From: Bacteroidales bacterium
GTDB taxonomy: Bacteria > Bacteroidota > Bacteroidia > Bacteroidales > P3
Direction: 5' to 3'
DNA length: 64,000 nucleotides
Assembly: GCA_017545365.1 (NCBI GenBank)
Contig: JAFWOP010000048.1
Span: 1-64,000, forward strand
Shown one piece after another: positions 1-7,888 of the stretch. The position numbers were made by a program, and so were the translations under genes. A model generated the notes under the pieces. It ran no database searches. It was not told the DNA's origin and saw only the letters and a list, made by a program, of their open reading frames with translations. The first letter of the stretch is position 1. Every line of letters begins with the position of its first letter.

Positions 1-3000
1 CCAACAGTGTCACTACCATCGGGAGCAATGCATTTAGCTATTGCTCTAGCCTAGACTCCATCTCCATTCCTAACAGTGTCACCGTAATAAACAATGCTAC
101 TTTTTATCAGTGTACTAGTTTGACTTCCATCACCATCCCCAACAGCGTCACCACCATCGAGGGAAATGCCTTCAGTAATTGCTCTAGCCTGACATCCGTC
201 ACCATTCCCAGAGGAATTAGAAGCATATATAGCTATGCATTTTATAATTGCTCCAATCTCTCAACCGTGAACTTCAATGCTGATAGTTGTACGTATATGG
301 GATACCAATATGACGGGAGTGTGGGTTATGTGTTTGGGGGTTGCAATGTCAGTACCTTAAACATAGGTAGCCATGTTAAGATGATTCCTGATGGAGCTTT
401 CGGTGACTGCGAACACCTAAGTTCTATTATAATTTCAGATTCTGTAGAAACAATAGGGCATATATCATTCCAGAACTGCACTAGTCTTACTTCGATTACT
501 ATCCCTAGAAGAGTTAAAAGTATTGGATACAATGCATTCTATGGTTGCTCCAATCTCGCAACTGTGAACTTCAATGCCGACAGCTGCACAAATATGGGAT
601 ATGACAGTGTAAATAATAATGTTTATTATGTGTTTTTGGGTTGCAATGTCAGTACCATAAACATAGGCAGCCATGTTAAGATGATTCCTAATGGAGGGTT
701 CAGTGGCTGCACGCATTTAGGTTCTATTACTATTCCAGATTCTGTGGAATCAATAGGGCATAGATCGTTCTGGGGCTGCACGAGTCTTACTTCGGTTACT
801 ATTCCTAGAGGAATTAGAAGTATTGGAGATAATGCCTTCAATAATTGCAGTAACCTTACAACCGTAAACTTCAATGCCGACAGCTGCACCTATATGGGAT
901 TTCATACTGATACATATACTGCCTACAGGGTGTTTGGCAATTGTAGTGTTAGTACTATCAATATAGGAAATAATGTTAGGGTAATACCTTCTGCTGCATT
1001 TTGGGGGTGTAATCCACAAACCATTATTGTTCCTGACTCAGTGGAATCCATCGGAATCGCAGCATTCTATAATTGTAGTGGATTGGATTCTCTGAGTATT
1101 GGTAGTTCAGTGGATTCGATTGCTGACTATGCATTCTGTCATTGCACGAATTTGCAGAACATATCAGTGCGTAATAATAATCCTCCTAACATCAATACCA
1201 GTAGTGTGTTTGCAAATGTTCCCAGCAACTGTATGGTGACTGTTCCTTGCGGCAGGGATTCCGTATACAGTGCGAGCAACTGGGGGACTTGGTTCTCTAA
1301 TATTGCTACGGACTGTTCCGAACCGGGTAGCACATACTACGACTTCTACGCCATCGCACCGTCGGGCGACACGCTCTATTACATCATCCTCGACTCTAAC
1401 CGTGTGACGGTAGTGCATCCCTTTGCTTCCGACACTACGGAACAGGCCTGGTGGGACGATGCCGTGCAGCCTACCGGCTCGCTGACAATCCCTGCCACTG
1501 TTACACACAACGACATCACCTACACCGTGGTACGCATCAGTGAGCATGCCTTCTATAACTGCACCAACCTCACTTCCGTCACTATCCCCAACACGGTGGA
1601 CTCCATCGGCGAATGGGCGTTTGCCTATAGTACCAGTCTCGGCTCGGTGACACTCGGCAATGCCGTTACCACCATTGGCTACGGAGCCTTCTATGGCTGC
1701 ACGGGGCTCTCGCTGTTGGTTATCCCCGACTCGCTCACCACCATCGGAAGCCATGCCTTCTCCATTCCCGATTGCCATGTGTCGGCAGTGTCTATACCCA
1801 GCACCGTCACCACTATTGGCGACCATGCCTTCTCTGGCTGGGGCGACCTCACCACGCTTACTATCCCGCGTTCGGTGACCTATATCGGCGACTGGGCTTT
1901 TGCCGCTTGCACCAGCCTTGCTACGGTGAACTTCTATGCCGACAGTTGCACCTATATGGGCAGCACCACGGCTCCTGTCTTCGACGGCGACATCCATATC
2001 CAGACCCTCCATATCGGCAATACGGTCAAGACCATTCCGGCAAATGCCTTTTATGGCTGTAGCGGTATTGGTACGGTGACAATTCCCGCCTCGGTTTCCT
2101 CCATCGGCAGCCATGCCTTTGCGGGATGCACCGGGCTTACAAGCATCACTTCCAAACGTGCTATAGCTCCCGTGGCCGGTGCCAGTGCTTTTGACAACAT
2201 CCCGGCCTCAACCCCTGTGTATATCCCCTGCGGAAGCACCGCTTCATACGCTTCTCGCTGGAACCACTTCACTAACTTTATCGAGGTGATGGATGCCCAT
2301 GTATGGGTGCGTTCTTCGGATGCTGCAATGGGTACGGCAAGCGTGACGGTGCAGCCCACATGTGCCACTCCCTCCGCCACCATCGTGGCCACCCCCAATG
2401 CGGGCTACCTCTTCGCCCTATGGAGTGACGGTGACACTCTTAATCCACGTACACTGATGATTGATAGGGACACGGTGCTGACTGCCTTTTTCGTGCCGAT
2501 GCCTGATACTATAACTAATTACGACACCATTATAGTACATGACACATTAATGATTCATGACACCACTGTCGTCAACAATTATATCTATGACACGACCATT
2601 GTACATGACACCTCTTACGTGGAAGTATATATACAAGACACGACCATTGTACATGACACCTCTTTCATTGAAGTATATGTTCACGACACAACCTTTGTAC
2701 ATGACACTGCGTATGTTCATGACACCACCATTGTGAACGTATATATCCACGACACCATCATAGTGAATAATTATATCCATGACACCGCGTATGTACATGA
2801 CACAACGATTGTGAACAACTATATCCATGACACTGTGTATGTACATGACACAACGATTGTGGACAACTATATCCACGACACCGTCATAGTGGACAACTAC
2901 ATCTACGACACCATATACTTGGAACGGTACATATATGACACATTTTATGTCCACGACACAATATATATACAAGGCGAAGGCATAGAAGACGTGACACTGC

Positions 3001-3206
3001 TCAACGCCAAGATATACCAGCGCAATGGGCAGATAGTGGTAGAGGGTGCAGAGGGGTATCCTGTGTATCTCTACGATGTGGTGGGGCGGTTGCTGGCTAC
3101 CAAACGTGAGACGGCACAGGAGGTGCTGCTCGACGTGCCTGCCTCGGGTGCCTACCTCGTCAAGATAGGCGACGCTCCTGCTAGAAGGATTGTGGTGCGG
3201 CGATAA
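1..3206 (+). CDS. BspA-like leucine-rich-repeat surface protein with T9SS sorting domain (5' end missing)
   Basis: A large secreted repeat protein, probably displayed on the cell surface by the type IX secretion system. The frame is already open at base 3 and runs to TAA at 3204-3206, so the start and signal peptide lie before the window; about 1067 residues are visible. Order: a first block of LRR_5 (BspA) repeats to about base 1310, with units of the type LTSITIPNSVTTI; a short beta-rich insert at about 1338-1530; a second LRR block to about 2150; an InlB-B-repeat-like segment at about 2285-2495 ending in WSDGDTLNPRTL; a stalk of repeated HDT/YDT units at 2500-2965; and a CTD ending ARRIVVRR. 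Three copies of a higher-order unit of 99-100 residues, each four LRRs, are seen at about 190-1000. The first block is clearly more AT-rich than the second. The ligand is unknown; BspA relatives bind host proteins or other bacteria. Confidence 0.88.
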   Translation, partial: NSVTTIGSNAFSYCSSLDSISIPNSVTVINNATFYQCTSLTSITIPNSVTTIEGNAFSNCSSLTSVTIPRGIRSIYSYAFYNCSNLSTVNFNADSCTYMGYQYDGSVGYVFGGCNVSTLNIGSHVKMIPDGAFGDCEHLSSIIISDSVETIGHISFQNCTSLTSITIPRRVKSIGYNAFYGCSNLATVNFNADSCTNMGYDSVNNNVYYVFLGCNVSTINIGSHVKMIPNGGFSGCTHLGSITIPDSVESIGHRSFWGCTSLTSVTIPRGIRSIGDNAFNNCSNLTTVNFNADSCTYMGFHTDTYTAYRVFGNCSVSTINIGNNVRVIPSAAFWGCNPQTIIVPDSVESIGIAAFYNCSGLDSLSIGSSVDSIADYAFCHCTNLQNISVRNNNPPNINTSSVFANVPSNCMVTVPCGRDSVYSASNWGTWFSNIATDCSEPGSTYYDFYAIAPSGDTLYYIILDSNRVTVVHPFASDTTEQAWWDDAVQPTGSLTIPATVTHNDITYTVVRISEHAFYNCTNLTSVTIPNTVDSIGEWAFAYSTSLGSVTLGNAVTTIGYGAFYGCTGLSLLVIPDSLTTIGSHAFSIPDCHVSAVSIPSTVTTIGDHAFSGWGDLTTLTIPRSVTYIGDWAFAACTSLATVNFYADSCTYMGSTTAPVFDGDIHIQTLHIGNTVKTIPANAFYGCSGIGTVTIPASVSSIGSHAFAGCTGLTSITSKRAIAPVAGASAFDNIPASTPVYIPCGSTASYASRWNHFTNFIEVMDAHVWVRSSDAAMGTASVTVQPTCATPSATIVATPNAGYLFALWSDGDTLNPRTLMIDRDTVLTAFFVPMPDTITNYDTIIVHDTLMIHDTTVVNNYIYDTTIVHDTSYVEVYIQDTTIVHDTSFIEVYVHDTTFVHDTAYVHDTTIVNVYIHDTIIVNNYIHDTAYVHDTTIVNNYIHDTVYVHDTTIVDNYIHDTVIVDNYIYDTIYLERYIYDTFYVHDTIYIQGEGIEDVTLLNAKIYQRNGQIVVEGAEGYPVYLYDVVGRLLATKRETAQEVLLDVPASGAYLVKIGDAPARRIVVRR
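2500..2965 (+). repeat. In-frame repeat coding the HDT/YDT stalk
   Basis: Degenerate tandem repeat inside the LRR gene, built from units such as HDTTIVHDT and NNYIHDT. Twenty Asp-Thr pairs occur in about 150 residues, spaced mostly 6 or 10 residues apart. Seventeen of them match the Bacteroidota O-glycosylation sequon D-(S/T)-(A/I/L/M/T/V). The repeat separates the folded domains from the sorting domain. Confidence 0.85.
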
Positions 3207-3340: not shown

Positions 3341-4075
3341 TCACTTAAAGTAATCATACAAGAACAATGGATAGGCGGCCAAAATGGATACACAAGGGTT
3401 TTCAGTGAGCACATATTTTGACAATTGGGATTGGAATACTTGTAGTTGTGTTATAGCACTTTTGCTTGTTGGTATTTTGTTGTCTCCATGGCATATGTAG
3501 TTGGCTTTGCATACATTCTGTTCCTTTAAGAGATTCCAATTACTTATAGCCTCATCTTCTTTAACTTGCCCCCTTGCTTCGATGAAATTGTTGTTTGCAT
3601 AGGACGAGAATGATGATGTAATACTTTTGAAACCACCACACCTATCAATGTTAATAGTATAGGTATGAAAATCTTTATCAGGCAATTTTTTAGTGTATCG
3701 GAGTGCTTCTATCATGGGATAGTTCACATACAGTTTGCCATGTTCAGTTTCATTGTCAAAGAATGTGAGCATCTCGGCCAGCTCTGAGTTTAGTAACTCC
3801 AAGGATTTGCTCGAATGGGGGTCATAGTCAAAGAATAAATACACCTCAGAAAAATCGGACTCTCTATAATCAAGTAGTTTATGCTCACCGCGACGTACAT
3901 CGATATCTCGAAGAGCTTCAATTACATCCCAATTGTTTTCTCTAAGGATTTTGTACAGAACATGGAACGTGCCTTCAACAATAAAATACTCAATCACATC
4001 TTCTTTTAGAAAGAGACGACTGAGTGGTTGGAACCATTTGTTCTCTCTAGGACCCTCGTATATACAAAGTATCAT
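3341..4075 (-). CDS. TOPRIM-like putative nuclease, partner of AAA15 ATPase
   Basis: A 244-residue protein with no signal peptide, probably the effector of a two-gene phage-defence or abortive-infection pair. The pattern resembles a TOPRIM fold of the RloB/AbiLii/OLD type: an N-terminal strand with acidic residues (CIYEGPRE, Glu7 and Glu11), a DxD motif in LFFDYDPH (Asp83 and Asp85), and NYPMIEAL (Glu123), which sits where RloB-like proteins have a conserved N-x-x-F-E. The TOPRIM assignment rests on these motifs alone. Its start overlaps the stop of the ATPase gene (ATGA, 4072-4075), which implies coupled translation. The gene is AT-rich compared with the housekeeping genes, which suggests transfer. 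Alternatives are another DUF family paired with AAA15 ATPases or a non-nuclease partner. Confidence 0.6.
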   Translation of the reverse strand: MILCIYEGPRENKWFQPLSRLFLKEDVIEYFIVEGTFHVLYKILRENNWDVIEALRDIDVRRGEHKLLDYRESDFSEVYLFFDYDPHSSKSLELLNSELAEMLTFFDNETEHGKLYVNYPMIEALRYTKKLPDKDFHTYTINIDRCGGFKSITSSFSSYANNNFIEARGQVKEDEAISNWNLLKEQNVCKANYICHGDNKIPTSKSAITQLQVFQSQLSKYVLTENPCVSILAAYPLFLYDYFK

Positions 4076-5199
4076 ATGACAAATGCCCCCCCCCTATATA
4101 GTTTCTCAATATTGTGTGCAAAACGTAGTTCCTTCTCAGTGCAGTCTACCAAAGGTTTTATTTTTCCTCCATCAAGTAAGAAATGACAGTCAGGTCTGAG
4201 CAAGTCATTAGTCATTAAGTATGTGTTGTGGGAAGATAGAAATAGTTGGCAATTGGGCATTTGAAACAACTGCTGGCAGACGGCAAATGAGAGTTTAAAA
4301 TGATAAAACGCATCAAATTCATCTATAAAGATAAACGAAGCTTTAGCTGCACGCCTCATCCAAAAAAACAGGAGCTCCAAAGCTTTCGTACCAGTAGAGG
4401 CAATTTGAAAAAAAGGTATTCTCGCTGTAATTCCACTGTCTTCATACCTTGACATCAGCACAGGTCGTTCTGTTGGGTTTTGTTGATTATTTGAGTTTTC
4501 GAGATGAAACTGCTGCCCACTTACTTCTTCAAGAAAATGAGCAAAGTCACCAACAAGGTCGTTTTTAATAATATACTCCTCAATATTGTCGGTTGGCGTG
4601 TTATCGTAACCGATGAATTCTCTACAGTCCAAACATTGATACCACAGCATAGTGTCAACAAACGAACGAAGCCTTGCAAGAACGTGGTTCTCAGCTAATG
4701 GATAATTTGACCACAAATAGCTCAATAGTGACACCTGGCGTTCGCTTGCTAAGAAGTCTCGTTTTATTTGCTCCGCCATTGTGAATTCACCCGTGTACAA
4801 TCCATGCGTATCCCTTTTCAGATATAATTCGCCATTCACCCAAACAGCCTCTTCTACCAAAACAGCCTCATGGTTTTTTTTGTACTGATATTCAATTAAT
4901 TGATTGTCAAACCTAAATGTATATTCGAACTTAACTAATCCAAACGGATTGCCAGCGTAAGAAAAATTATTATAGTAGTCCCTTTTCCTTACCTTCTGAG
5001 AAAGGTGGTTGACTATATCAAAGATTGCGAGGCCAAAGTTAGATTTACCTGACCCATTAGGGCCGTAAATAATCCCATTTTTCACAATCCCATTTTTCAC
5101 AGCATAAGTATTAAAATCATAATGATTGGGATGGGACAAATCCAATTCAATTCGGTCTTTAAATCCTCTAAAATTCTGAACAGCAAATTTTAACAACAT
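4072..5199 (-). CDS. AAA15/RloA-like ATPase of putative defence cassette
   Basis: A 375-residue cytoplasmic ATPase of the AAA_15/AAA_21 (SMC-like, OLD/RloA/AbiL) group. The N-terminus MLLKFAVQNFRGF is the usual start of this family. Walker A is GPNGSGKS (residues 46-53), the signature-like region is ASTGTKALELLFFW, Walker B is FIFIDEFDAF, and the H-loop is LFLSSHNT. Proteins of this kind are the sensor or gate in two-gene defence systems such as AbiL and PARIS, where the ATPase holds back a toxic nuclease. It is the first gene of the pair and overlaps its partner by 4 bp. An exact 15-bp tandem duplication (5071-5100) repeats VKNGI just before Walker A. The AT-rich composition and repeat-rich surroundings suggest horizontal acquisition. 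Confidence 0.85.
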   Translation of the reverse strand: MLLKFAVQNFRGFKDRIELDLSHPNHYDFNTYAVKNGIVKNGIIYGPNGSGKSNFGLAIFDIVNHLSQKVRKRDYYNNFSYAGNPFGLVKFEYTFRFDNQLIEYQYKKNHEAVLVEEAVWVNGELYLKRDTHGLYTGEFTMAEQIKRDFLASERQVSLLSYLWSNYPLAENHVLARLRSFVDTMLWYQCLDCREFIGYDNTPTDNIEEYIIKNDLVGDFAHFLEEVSGQQFHLENSNNQQNPTERPVLMSRYEDSGITARIPFFQIASTGTKALELLFFWMRRAAKASFIFIDEFDAFYHFKLSFAVCQQLFQMPNCQLFLSSHNTYLMTNDLLRPDCHFLLDGGKIKPLVDCTEKELRFAHNIEKLYRGGAFVI

Positions 5200-5222: not shown

Positions 5223-5276
5223 CAAATATACTTATTTTTTTTGACATGCCGTATTTTTTTTACGGCATGTCAAAAA
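5223..5276 (-). promoter_or_regulatory. Promoter of the ATPase/TOPRIM-like operon with overlapping palindrome
   Basis: On the minus strand TATATTTG (5230-5223) matches the Bacteroidota -7 element, 24 bp before the ATPase ATG. Immediately upstream lies a perfect inverted repeat with 16-bp arms (5238-5253 and 5261-5276; core TGACATGCCGTA) and a 7-nt T loop. It covers the -33 region. It has T at its 5' side and A at its 3' side, so it is not a normal terminator and looks more like an operator. Confidence 0.6.
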
Positions 5277-5394: not shown

Positions 5395-5490
5395 CAGCAT
5401 CGAAGATGCTGAATTTCAATAACCCCACACAAGGAACGCAGTGTGGGGTCAACGAAAACCCTACTACTCAGCGTCCCGGAGGGACGCGAC
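5395..5490 (+). repeat. Three-hairpin dispersed repeat, copy A
   Basis: Hairpin 1: CAGCATC/GATGCTG (5395-5401, 5405-5411). Hairpin 2: CCCCACAC/GTGTGGGG (5423-5430, 5441-5448). Hairpin 3: GCGTCCC-GGA-GGGACGC (5471-5487), followed by GACA. The order and the third hairpin match copies B and C. Stem sequences 1 and 2 differ from B but still pair, which suggests selection on structure. Confidence 0.7.
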
Positions 5491-5560
5491 AATTGGAAAG
5501 ATTGGAAAAAAATCAGTCATACTTTATACTAGAGCGAAAAATAAATATCAATGCTAGCTG

Positions 5561-5725
5561 ATGCCAACCGAGGGCTACACTATATGCCTCTACGATGTGG
5601 TCGGGCGGCTGCTTGCCACACGGCGTGATGCGACACAGGAGGTACTGCTCGACGTGCCTGCCTTGGGTGCCTATCTCGTGAAGATTGGCGACGCTCCGGC
5701 TAGGAGGATTGTGGTGAGGAGATAA
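5561..5725 (+). pseudogene. Stranded T9SS C-terminal sorting domain fragment
   Basis: A 54-codon frame ending in TAA at 5723 encodes CLYDVVGRLLATRR, then LLDVPALGAYLVKIGD, and ends ARRIVVRR. This is almost the same as the last 50 residues of the LRR protein ending at 3206. It has no signal peptide or upstream domains, so it is the 3' end of a duplicated or broken cargo gene. With the CTD of the LRR gene it forms direct repeats on either side of the ATPase/TOPRIM-like cassette. Confidence 0.85.
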
Positions 5726-5755: not shown

Positions 5756-5800
5756 TATTTTATGCAATTTTGCAATCCGATTGCAAAATTGCATAAAATA
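5756..5800. repeat. 45-bp perfect palindrome (21-bp arms, 3-nt loop)
   Basis: Left arm 5756-5776 and right arm 5780-5800 are exact reverse complements; the core is ATGCAATTTTGCAAT. It lies 31 bp after the stop of the CTD fragment. There is no clear T tract after it, so termination is possible but not evident. Confidence 0.75.
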
Positions 5801-5825: not shown

Positions 5826-5935
5826 TCTATAAATCACCTCGAAGAGGTGTGACCATTAATAACACCGTACAAGCCGTAAGGCGCAGTGCGGTGATTGTCA
5901 AATCGTAGAGAAACTGCGTCCCGGAGGGACGCGAC
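5826..5935 (+). repeat. Three-hairpin dispersed repeat, copy B
   Basis: Hairpin 1: CACCTC-GAA-GAGGTG (5835-5849). Hairpin 2: CACCGTAC with GTGCGGTG (5863-5870, 5886-5893). Hairpin 3: GCGTCCC-GGA-GGGACGC (5916-5932), again followed by GACA. It closely matches copy D at 36.1 kb in hairpins 1 and 2. Confidence 0.75.
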
Positions 5936-6177
5936 ATGAATACAGCATTTATAGAACACGTCTTATATGATACGCAGGTATTTAGCATCTGCCACCTATA
6001 ATTCCACCTTCGAAACTGGTTTTGGTAGGATAACAGAGTTACTCAAATCCTGTCTTGTCCGCCGTGTTGTCATATACAACGGCACTCAGGAACGGCGCAA
6101 CGCTTCTATAGAAGTTCTGCACTACTCTAGTTTGCTTAACCCTGTTGTCTAAGAATTGATGCTTCTCTCTCATATTG

Positions 6178-6207
6178 TCCCGCCCTCGAGATTGCCCGAG
6201 GGCGGGA
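6178..6207. repeat. 11-bp-stem GC-rich hairpin
   Basis: TCCCGCCCTCG (6178-6188) pairs exactly with CGAGGGCGGGA (6197-6207) over an 8-nt loop. No clear T tract follows in either direction. Its position between repeat copies B and C suggests a REP-like structural element. Confidence 0.6.
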
Positions 6208-6228
6208 TGATATATTATGGTTGTATTG

Positions 6229-6343
6229 GTGTCGCGTCCCTAACGGGACGCATTCTGATACTTCAGATATTCACCGCACTGCACCTACAGCTTGTACGGT
6301 GTTATTCATATCTCACCCCTTTGGGATGATTGATAGAAGTTTC
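6229..6343 (-). repeat. Three-hairpin dispersed repeat, copy C (inverted)
   Basis: Read on the minus strand it has the same order as A and B. The GCGTCCC/GGGACGC stem is at 6234-6251, CACCGCAC/GTACGGTG is at 6272-6279 and 6294-6301, and a degraded first hairpin lies near 6313-6330. The end GGGACGCGACA is shared with A and B. Confidence 0.7.
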
Positions 6344-6395
6344 CTATAGTAGACTATGCGCCTCAATATCAGCGTTCATACTTTGGGGCGACGTG

Positions 6396-6419
6396 AAAGT
6401 ACACAAAGTTGTGTACTTT
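6396..6419. repeat. 11-bp inverted repeat
   Basis: AAAGTACACAA and TTGTGTACTTT are exact reverse complements separated by 2 bp. It lies about 70 bp beyond the stop codon of the small membrane-protein gene on the minus strand. It could be a terminator stem or a binding site; nothing further can be said. Confidence 0.45.
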
Positions 6420-6486
6420 GCTCTATGTGGTATAGTAAGATGTTGGCTTATTGATTGATGAAGTAGGGAGAGTCTATGTCCTATGC

Positions 6487-6768
6487 TTATCTCTTACCGT
6501 ATTTCTCTTTGAAATAGGTGTTCTCTTGTTTGCGGCGGCGGTTCCAGCGCACTTGCAGCCAGGCGGAGACAAGGGCTATGATGATGCTCAATGCGATGTC
6601 CAGCGGTATCTCCCACCACGTGAACGACTTGGTGAAGAAGATGCTGGCGACCCATTCGGCCACAGAAAGGATTATCAGGATGATTGAATATTCAATGAAA
6701 TAGTTCTTGAATACCTTTTCTTTGTCTTTTAATAGCAGTAGTTTGCCTTCTTCGATGTGACTGTCCAT
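6487..6768 (-). CDS. Small two-helix membrane protein
   Basis: A 93-residue protein of unknown function. I chose the ATG at 6768 (MDSHIEEGKLLL) because the in-frame extension further upstream runs antisense through the nadC promoter and reads like noise. The N-terminal third is charged. Two hydrophobic segments (about residues 25-45 and 53-72) follow, and the end is basic (RRRKQ, KEKYGKR), so the C-terminus should face the cytoplasm. I recognise no family. It is divergent from nadC. Confidence 0.6.
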   Translation of the reverse strand: MDSHIEEGKLLLLKDKEKVFKNYFIEYSIILIILSVAEWVASIFFTKSFTWWEIPLDIALSIIIALVSAWLQVRWNRRRKQENTYFKEKYGKR

Positions 6769-6960
6769 AGTGCTGTTTTTTTTGTGGTGAGGTGTATATG
6801 TATCAAAATAACGTGAGCAGGCTTTTCTTATTGTGTAAAAATGTGATAAAAACAGTGATAAAGGCTGTAGGTGGACGAAAAATGTGGGACTGTATTGATG
6901 ATGATTACTTGTTGCGAATGATTGATATACAGTAATTTCTGTTCTTTGTGAATGTTTTTG

Positions 6961-6992
6961 TTTGTATAATTGGGCGGAAAGTCGTATCTTTG
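6961..6992 (+). promoter_or_regulatory. Bacteroidota-type promoter of nadC
   Basis: TTTG (6961-6964) and TATCTTTG (6985-6992) are separated by 20 bp, a good match to the -33/-7 consensus. The nadC ATG follows 26 bp after the -7 box. This excludes an upstream start for nadC. Confidence 0.8.
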
Positions 6993-7018
6993 CAATTTCA
7001 AAAATAAAGTTGTTTGAC

Positions 7019-7888
7019 ATGATGACTACTATCCCTAATTTGGACGAGCTGATACGCATGGCGTTGCTCGAAGATGTGGGCGACGGCGACCACAGCACTC
7101 TGGCGTGCATCCCGCCGACGGCAACCAACACCGCCAAGATGGTGGCCAAGCAGGACGGCATAGTCTGCGGCATGGAAGTGGGTGAACGGGTGTTCCATCT
7201 GGTGAACGACTGGTTCTATCACAGCACTGTGCCCATGAAAGTGACATGCCTGAAACATGACGGCGACAGTGTGCAGAAGGGCGACGTGTTGATGCTCGTG
7301 GAAGGCGCTTCGGGCGTTATCCTCACTGCCGAACGCACGGCGTTGAACTTCATGCAGCGGCTGAGCGGCATCGCCACCGAGACACACCGCATGGTGCAGA
7401 TGCTCGAAGGACTGCACACCCGGCTGCTCGACACCCGCAAGACCACGCCCAACATGCGCCTGCTGGAGAAATACGCCGTCAAGTGCGGAGGGGGTACCAA
7501 CCACCGTATCGGCCTCTACGACATGGTGATGCTGAAGGATAACCATATCGACTTTGCTGGCGGAATCGATGCTGCCATCGACCGCACACGTGCCTATCTC
7601 AAAGAGAAAGGCAAGGCCTTGAAGATTGAGATAGAGGTGCGCAACCTCGACGAGCTGGAGCAAGTGCTAAAGCATGGAGGTGTGGACCGCATCATGCTCG
7701 ACAATTTCGACACCGACACCCTCCGCGAGGCAGTGCGGCGCATAGACGGTAAGTATGAAACCGAGGCCAGCGGCGGCATCACCGACGCCACACTCCGCAG
7801 CTATGCCGAGACCGGGGTGGACTTCATCTCCGTGGGCGCCCTCACCCACCATATCAAGAGTATGGATATTTCATTAGTGAAAAAGTAG
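7019..7888 (+). CDS. nadC: Nicotinate-nucleotide diphosphorylase (quinolinate phosphoribosyltransferase)
   Basis: Converts quinolinate and PRPP to nicotinate mononucleotide with release of CO2 and PPi, the entry of de novo NAD synthesis; cytoplasmic. The 289-residue length is normal. Diagnostic motifs are present in order: DTRKTTP (residues 138-144), GGGTNHRIGLYD (157-168), KDNHI (173-177), and near the end the phosphate-binding EASGGI. Two adjacent ATGs (7019, 7022) are possible. Both follow the promoter, and longer in-frame starts would lie upstream of it. nadA and nadB are not in the window. It is followed by the YihY gene after 67 bp. Confidence 0.96.
   Translation: MMTTIPNLDELIRMALLEDVGDGDHSTLACIPPTATNTAKMVAKQDGIVCGMEVGERVFHLVNDWFYHSTVPMKVTCLKHDGDSVQKGDVLMLVEGASGVILTAERTALNFMQRLSGIATETHRMVQMLEGLHTRLLDTRKTTPNMRLLEKYAVKCGGGTNHRIGLYDMVMLKDNHIDFAGGIDAAIDRTRAYLKEKGKALKIEIEVRNLDELEQVLKHGGVDRIMLDNFDTDTLREAVRRIDGKYETEASGGITDATLRSYAETGVDFISVGALTHHIKSMDISLVKK

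Follow-up and report, generated by a model that had tools for sequence, protein, structure and literature searches.

PDC-M12, an ATPase and RloB/TOPRIM-type gene pair with a conserved promoter dyad: a candidate autoregulated phage-defence operon of mobile elements

In a 64,000-nucleotide stretch of contig JAFWOP010000048.1 from a Bacteroidales bacterium (referred to throughout, at its whole length, as the window), we describe a two-gene cassette that encodes an ATP-binding cassette (ABC) ATPase, protein A, and a divergent RloB/TOPRIM-type protein, protein B, and is preceded by a palindromic promoter site. The pair is a new member of a family already catalogued in PADLOC-DB 2.0.0 as the phage-defence candidate PDC-M12 (M12A plus M12B), a label that stands there without description. 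New for PDC-M12 are the kinship of B with RloB, the placement of the family as a sister of AbiL, and an operator that is kept across phyla. We put at roughly 0.6 the probability that PDC-M12 is an autoregulated, AbiL-like phage-defence operon of ATPase antitoxin and nuclease toxin, carried by mobile elements and working like AbiL and PARIS. A first-pass annotation of the same DNA had proposed that an ATPase gene and a TOPRIM-type gene form a candidate defence operon akin to AbiL and RloB, and this proposal stands. Neither the name PDC-M12 nor a published account of the operator was found in a narrow literature search that took in few subscription papers and no preprints; as far as its main text goes, "M12" is likewise absent from the rumen paper PMC13356809.

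The features of the window on which the argument turns are the following (W, A or T; N or n, any base).

4072..5199, minus strand: gene A, 375 amino acids (aa); SMC/Rad50/PtuA-type ABC ATPase, PADLOC PDC-M12A; proposed sensor/antitoxin
3341..4075, minus strand: gene B, 244 aa; divergent RloB/TOPRIM-type protein, PADLOC PDC-M12B; proposed nuclease toxin/effector
4072..4075, minus strand: ATGA overlap of the A stop and B start (plus strand TCAT), labelled translational coupling
5249..5265, minus strand: candidate core of the operator, 17 bp, CCGTA-A7-TACGG; its first base is at -66 relative to the start codon of A
5238..5276, no strand: extended 39-bp dyad with 16-nt arms and a 7-nt centre, with mirror symmetry between 4 and 19 nt on each side of base 5257
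5223..5230, minus strand: TATATTTG, a TAnnTTTG element 18 nt downstream of the operator

The gene pair and its kinship

Both open reading frames (ORFs) are intact and lie on the minus strand, and positions 4072-4075 read ATGA on that strand, the 4-bp overlap already seen in the first pass. The cassette is AT-rich, as had also been held, with a G+C content of 0.380 against 0.526 for the window and a lower value in only 1 of 125 sampled segments of the same length. Protein A carries the Walker A (GPNGSGKS), Walker B (FIFIDEFDAF) and H-loop (SSHNT) motifs previously read in it, and residues G46, P47, N48, G49, G51, K52, D293, E294 and H324 are invariant in an alignment of 65 sequences. In its Walker motifs, signature position, H-loop and fold it is an ABC ATPase of the SMC/Rad50/PtuA type. 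The earlier label AAA15 gives way to AAA_21, which reaches 55.9 bits in Pfam, above its cut-off; AAA_15 scores 27.9 bits against a cut-off of 32.1. In PADLOC-DB, A matches PDC-M12A over residues 1-373 (E 1.4e-127), the next named system being AbiLi (E 1.2e-36), and B matches PDC-M12B over residues 1-244 (E 2e-59). Both window proteins thus match their models over the whole length, and the earlier view that the partner of the ATPase matched no known system has to be dropped. The gene order is also that of the other copies: A stands directly upstream of B on the same strand in 47/47 loci with a B match, a count that includes some overlapping or near-identical loci. An NCBIfam search of the pair returned nothing above cut-off.

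On sequence comparison, we class B as a divergent RloB/TOPRIM-type protein. It has 1152 homologues at E <=0.001. Among 151 diverse sequences the four acids singled out in the first pass as a TOPRIM pattern are conserved (E7 in 149, D83 in 150, D85 in 145 with Glu in six others, E123 in 149 with Gln in the other two), and E11 and P120 are near-invariant too. That annotation had regarded a fold lacking a TOPRIM core as grounds for abandoning the idea; the predicted structure (predicted local distance difference test, pLDDT, 94.4; predicted template modelling score, pTM, 0.91) has four parallel-type core strands at residues 2-6, 28-32, 77-83 and 113-119, with E7, D83/D85 and E123 modelled at, or just past, strand ends. 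The relation to RloB is apparent when profiles are compared with each other. Aligned by hhalign, 151 B sequences and 35 RloB sequences gave a probability of 93.1, an E value of 3.1e-7 and a score of 54.1; none of 100 column shuffles scored above 18.2 and the reversed alignment reached 14.2. The EGxxxE, DxD and PxxE motifs of the two families coincide. An earlier run with only nine RloB sequences had yielded a 21-column match at a probability of 2.1%, which became clear after the set was widened.

Other searches agree in direction. PF13707 (RloB) is reached by 39 of 117 B homologues at E <=1 (best 6.5e-5), the family that follows being reached by 13 (best 0.016). A genome search with PF13707 gave sub-cut-off matches at the B genes of G001, G146, G240, G276 and G355, and three PDC-M12B or intermediate relatives score 21.9-25.8 bits against a cut-off of 31.5. 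In a viral fold library the first match of B is a RloB-like protein (E 3.8e-3, probability 0.98, template modelling (TM) scores 0.38/0.43), followed by a match at E 0.043. Of the RloB, DUF4435 and AAA_15 profiles that the first pass had proposed for comparison, the Pfam RloB model (PF13707, cut-off not reached) and DUF4435 found no match in window B and AAA_15 stayed below cut-off on A; RloB emerged from the profile-profile alignment.

The placement beside AbiL follows from the ATPase and from intermediate loci. In a tree of 48 A proteins, built by a quick search and with L142 and L065 as long branches, the 35 PDC-M12A rows fall on one side of a branch (Shimodaira-Hasegawa-like approximate likelihood ratio test 99), seven AbiL/RloB-type rows sit on a separate branch (96), six intermediates lie outside PDC-M12, and window A joins L031 and L034 (99). 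One intermediate, L020, has a B protein that matches both PDC-M12B (1.9e-10) and AbiLii (1.1e-5) and an A protein that matches both AbiLi (3.7e-45) and PDC-M12A (1.5e-23).

A promoter dyad that stays with gene A

The window operator, CCGTA-(A/T)7-TACGG, occurs once in the 64 kb and in none of 100 shuffles. The first-pass annotation dealt with 3341..5199 and missed the dyad at 5238-5276, since it lies just outside. To follow the site through the family, A proteins were clustered greedily at 70% blastp identity, start codons were chosen by pattern, and upstream stretches of 120-200 nt were searched. The core GTA-N7-TAC was found within 200 nt upstream of A in 34/36 clusters (<70% identity), the exceptions being L139 and L084, whose A gene is truncated by the start of the record. 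In 27/36 the dyad was perfect, with six or seven A/T among the seven spacer positions, against a mean of 0.095 and a maximum of 1 in shuffles; this shuffle control concerns the perfect dyad only, and the control for the core is real sequence. All of these 34 sites have a spacer of 7 and an unchanged GTA and TAC. In 22 of them CC/GG flanks this core; the remaining 12 comprise seven asymmetric sites and five symmetric ones (AT/AT twice; TC/GA, TT/AA and GT/AC once each), and the symmetric ATGTA, GTGTA and TTGTA dyads fall within one A clade (L011, L015, L019, L143). Named hosts with a perfect dyad are Pectobacterium, Acinetobacter, Vibrio and Fusobacterium; sites of Escherichia and Raoultella have the left arm GTGTA, and uncultured Bacilli are carriers as well. 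In intermediate loci GTA-N7-TAC is present in 7/7 upstreams examined, for example as CTGTA-W7-TACAG.

The site is also largely tied to A genes in their genomic surroundings. In 32 genomes, 16 with and 16 without a B match, exact CCGTAW7TACGG occurs five times, always upstream of A sequences, and a reversed control pattern twice. Four of the five sites are at known pairs and the fifth, in G270 (L132), precedes an A fragment of 79 codons close to the end of a contig; the exact form is present in only 4/16 of the pair-bearing genomes, the rest having other arms or one G/C in the spacer. The surroundings of 16 pairs, together with 14 control places, come to 567 kb and contain 18 perfect dyads, of which 12 precede A genes. 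Counted by gene, a perfect dyad precedes 12/18 A genes and 3/441 other genes (one of these three dyads belongs to an A gene and is counted again for a gene that diverges from it), and the GTA-N7-TAC core precedes 16/18 and 6/441. As a DNA probe, the operator recovered L132 and a viral contig with the pair, L155, both of them absent from the protein-search lists. Among viral contigs, 9/81 stretches with the exact 17-mer have A downstream: eight by a script rule, already known from IMG/VR loci, and L155 by inspection.

The remaining 72 viral sites divide into 40 inside gene calls and 32 between genes. Between genes, the exact 17-mer stands upstream of a phage amidase (endolysin-type) family, of which two members were scanned (Amidase_2, CW_7), and upstream of a capsid family, of which one was scanned (Phage_capsid); the loci at amidase or capsid genes are L144, L163, L172, L180, L203, L216, L218 and L221, and L161, L165, L183 and L190. 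The 17-mer is kept between amidases of as low as 36-55% identity, and several of the contigs are near-copies.

The position of the site relative to promoter-like sequences is regular. TTG[ACT] begins 4-8 nt past the site in 19/34 loci, where a -35 box would be expected, against a mean of 2.6 and a maximum of 7 in 500 shuffles. TAnnTTTG, the form of a Bacteroidota-type -7 box, starts 16-18 nt past the site at three loci (the window, L031 and L034) and at offset 1 at two others (L052 and L016). From this register the site looks, in most loci, like a DNA element of the promoter rather than a leader RNA. An RNA hairpin or leader, with a 5-bp stem and a 7-nt loop like an anticodon arm, was considered and rejected because many sites lie upstream of the -35-like box and are thus probably not transcribed; it is further disfavoured by the occurrence of both A-tract and T-tract orientations and by an Rfam search of the window stretch that found nothing. 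The dyad coincides with no listed intrinsic terminator.

Carriers and surroundings

The pair is found on plasmids and in phages as well as on chromosomes, some copies standing beside defence genes; the first pass had reasoned that homologues confined to non-defence settings would speak against its proposal, and such confinement is not what was observed. The PDC-M12B model matches in 21/392 genomes from the phylum of an uncultured Bacilli metagenome-assembled genome and in 26/395 from one class, two sets that overlap and in each of which five or six matches are weak and of intermediate type (1e-7 to 1e-10). A plasmid collection holds 14 records with the pair, one being a 2.1-Mb Fusobacterium record. 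A near-identity search of E. coli found it in 9/5426 genomes, always on plasmids of 4.0-4.4 kb, and the gene table of one 4,011-bp plasmid, which is incomplete, has no entries beyond A, B, MobA and a Rep gene. Three Vibrio phage records carry it, the one examined being a filamentous phage, as do 16 IMG/VR loci, at eight of which the 99 neighbours include terminases, portals and major head proteins.

No third gene family recurs in a set of 220 neighbours drawn from 30 loci: the widest linked set spans eight loci and is mixed (ABC transporters and other proteins), and the others span at most two. Genes with a helix-turn-helix (HTH) occur near some copies. Scanned with PADLOC models at E 1e-10, 120 neighbour genes at 16 loci (one of 121 listed neighbours having been left out) gave 136 matches, against 16 in 126 control genes at 14 loci; at 1e-40 the figures are 24 and 1. 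These models overlap, several ZorD/DpdE matches being perhaps one helicase and DndA/SspA and mad3 being generic, and probably no more than a few of the neighbours are in fact defence genes. Defence genes are thus only modestly enriched near the pair, which lends modest support to a role in defence.

Some copies are decayed, as judged by ORF structure: B is short or split and A intact in L002, L018, L021 and L143, A is split and B intact in L045, and both are short or split in L026. These are too few to prove an order in which the toxin is lost first; a count of copies with B broken and A intact by HMM coverage was set aside, being confounded by divergence. In L090 a second, more distant A-like gene (6300-7418, 94 bits) lies near the pair and has its own ATGTA-W7-TACAT dyad at 6255.

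In the window, the surface-protein debris that had been described around the pair is confirmed on the right, where 5570-5725 is the 3' tail fragment of a gene, and not on the left, where 120-3206 is a long open BspA-type leucine-rich repeat gene of 1028 codons with the same kind of tail. The two tails form a 156-nt direct repeat that flanks the cassette (3051-3206 and 5570-5725, 129/156 bases identical, 83%), which would fit an insertion of the cassette into a tandem gene pair or the replacement of part of that pair. Beyond the fragment, a perfect 22-nt inverted repeat with a 1-nt centre (5756-5800) is followed by an element at 5855-6309 resembling a miniature inverted-repeat transposable element, with terminal inverted repeats of 24 nt (92%) and 21 nt (86%) around about 366 nt and a largest listed ORF of 61 aa. 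A palindrome of the repetitive extragenic palindromic kind, GCGTCCCGGAGGGACGC followed by GACA, is present in two identical copies (5471-5491 and 5916-5936). Judged by eye, the remaining window appears to be ordinary chromosome of a Bacteroidota-like bacterium.

Proposed mechanism, alternatives and known systems

Two precedents underlie the mechanism that we propose. An AAA ATPase neutralises a RloB-type TOPRIM toxin in E. coli (PMC10440598), and AriA holds the tRNase AriB in check until it is triggered by phage (PMC12409363); from these we derive an autoregulated pair of sensor-antitoxin ATPase and nuclease toxin. The scheme that we infer takes in the restraint of B by A, the nuclease activity with its substrate and trigger, the autoregulation and the protein that binds the operator, and defence itself. 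A would act as an ABC-ATPase sensor that binds and restrains B, and B as a metal-dependent nuclease of the TOPRIM/RloB type, released once infection triggers A. Freed B would cut essential host or phage nucleic acid, tRNA being a target that would fit the PARIS precedent, and the infected cell would stop (abortive infection). A, or the A-B complex, would bind the 17-bp dyad, ahead of the -35/-33 region or overlapping it, and keep the operon low; if A were lost during infection, B would be set free and transcription would rise as well. Since copies from several phyla share no third gene family and the 4-kb plasmids hold little else, A, B or A-B seem the likeliest readers of the dyad. A bolder and rather doubtful extension holds that PDC-M12 is its own sequence-specific regulator, in which phage sensing, nuclease release and operon induction would be one act; some phage contigs have the 17-mer ahead of their major-capsid and endolysin genes, so that titration of the repressor by replicating phage DNA could be the trigger.

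The dyad and the small carriers would also suit an addiction or stability (toxin-antitoxin) module of plasmids and phages, whose gain is the persistence of its carrier and whose dyad is the usual antitoxin operator. The pair is indeed cargo of very small plasmids and of phages, and relatives have been validated as cases of toxin neutralisation (PMC10440598). We nevertheless consider it unlikely that this is the whole role, given that its relatives AbiL and PARIS serve in defence, according to PMC10440598 and PMC12409363, and that some chromosomal copies lie beside other defence genes. Addiction and defence are not mutually exclusive.

The dyad might instead be read by a host regulator or a neighbouring HTH protein, or act as a structured RNA, with the operon wired to another signal. 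Fur-family Zur proteins bind TCGTA-N5-TACGA and LexA binds CTGT-N8-ACAG; the present site, short, symmetric and near the -35, resembles such boxes and differs from both. The HTH genes near some copies keep this alternative alive and weigh against the autoregulated defence operon that we prefer, as does the structural evidence on B: a Foldseek search of the Protein Data Bank gave no match at E 0.001, and matches to solved structures are weak and many of them to non-TOPRIM Rossmann-like folds (in this weak fold comparison the OLD C-terminal region was the top, but tied, VIA match). Control by a host factor seems quite improbable all the same. A spacer of 7 is common to the 34 cluster sites, the 32 genomes hold no exact site beyond the five at A sequences and hence no visible regulon for the exact form, no neighbour gene family recurs widely, the site is kept in Pseudomonadota, Fusobacteriota, Bacilli and Bacteroidota-like carriers, and the symmetric non-CC dyads track one A clade; for a structured RNA, the location of many sites upstream of a -35-like box and the Rfam result on the window stretch count against it. 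The weak fold matches would likewise allow B to be no nuclease at all, but a RloB/TOPRIM-like scaffold that partners A structurally and binds nucleotides or nucleic acid. This we regard as very improbable, with E7, E11, D83, D85 and E123 near-invariant in 151 sequences and at or near predicted strand ends.

For the autoregulated defence operon, the value of the promoter site is that of an unusual handle: a site that stays with one defence operon across several phyla points to autoregulation and to a DNA-binding surface, and the operon makes testable how defence operons spare the host while staying ready. The RptR-regulated defence island is alike in that conserved palindromic promoter sites control defence genes; as described in PMC12255303, RptR is a separate repressor with the 6-bp site TAGCTA, whereas the PDC-M12 site is 5-7-5 and its copies have no third gene family in common. 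OLD nucleases and GajA of Gabija also couple an ABC ATPase to a TOPRIM domain; membership among OLD nucleases was rejected since ATPase and TOPRIM lie in two separate ORFs here, making two chains instead of one.

PARIS, composed of the ABC ATPase AriA and the TOPRIM tRNase AriB, shares with PDC-M12 a separate ATPase and TOPRIM-type effector and a proposed restraint and release. It differs in that the AriA match on A covers exactly the coordinates of the generic AAA_21 match, and membership was rejected for want of an AriB match on B, neither AriB nor DUF4435 models matching window B at E <=1. In L051, the Vibrio filamentous phage PQ189355, the depositors label A as Paris_II__AAA_21, but PADLOC assigns it to PDC-M12A (3.6e-149); counts of PARIS that derive from a generic ATPase model may therefore include PDC-M12.

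The closest comparison is with AbiL of Lactococcus. Window B has no AbiLii match at E <=1, whereas two RloB-type proteins match AbiLii at 1e-27 to 1e-28; PDC-M12A forms a clade of its own and does not group with AbiLi proteins; and the promoter dyad is absent from 7/7 AbiL/RloB-type loci with at least 120 nt upstream. The two systems are nevertheless alike in the type of ATPase (AbiLi), in the superfamily of the effector (the RloB/TOPRIM protein AbiLii) and in their two-gene plan, and they are joined by intermediates, which places a hitherto nameless database candidate beside AbiL with a mechanism that can be tested.
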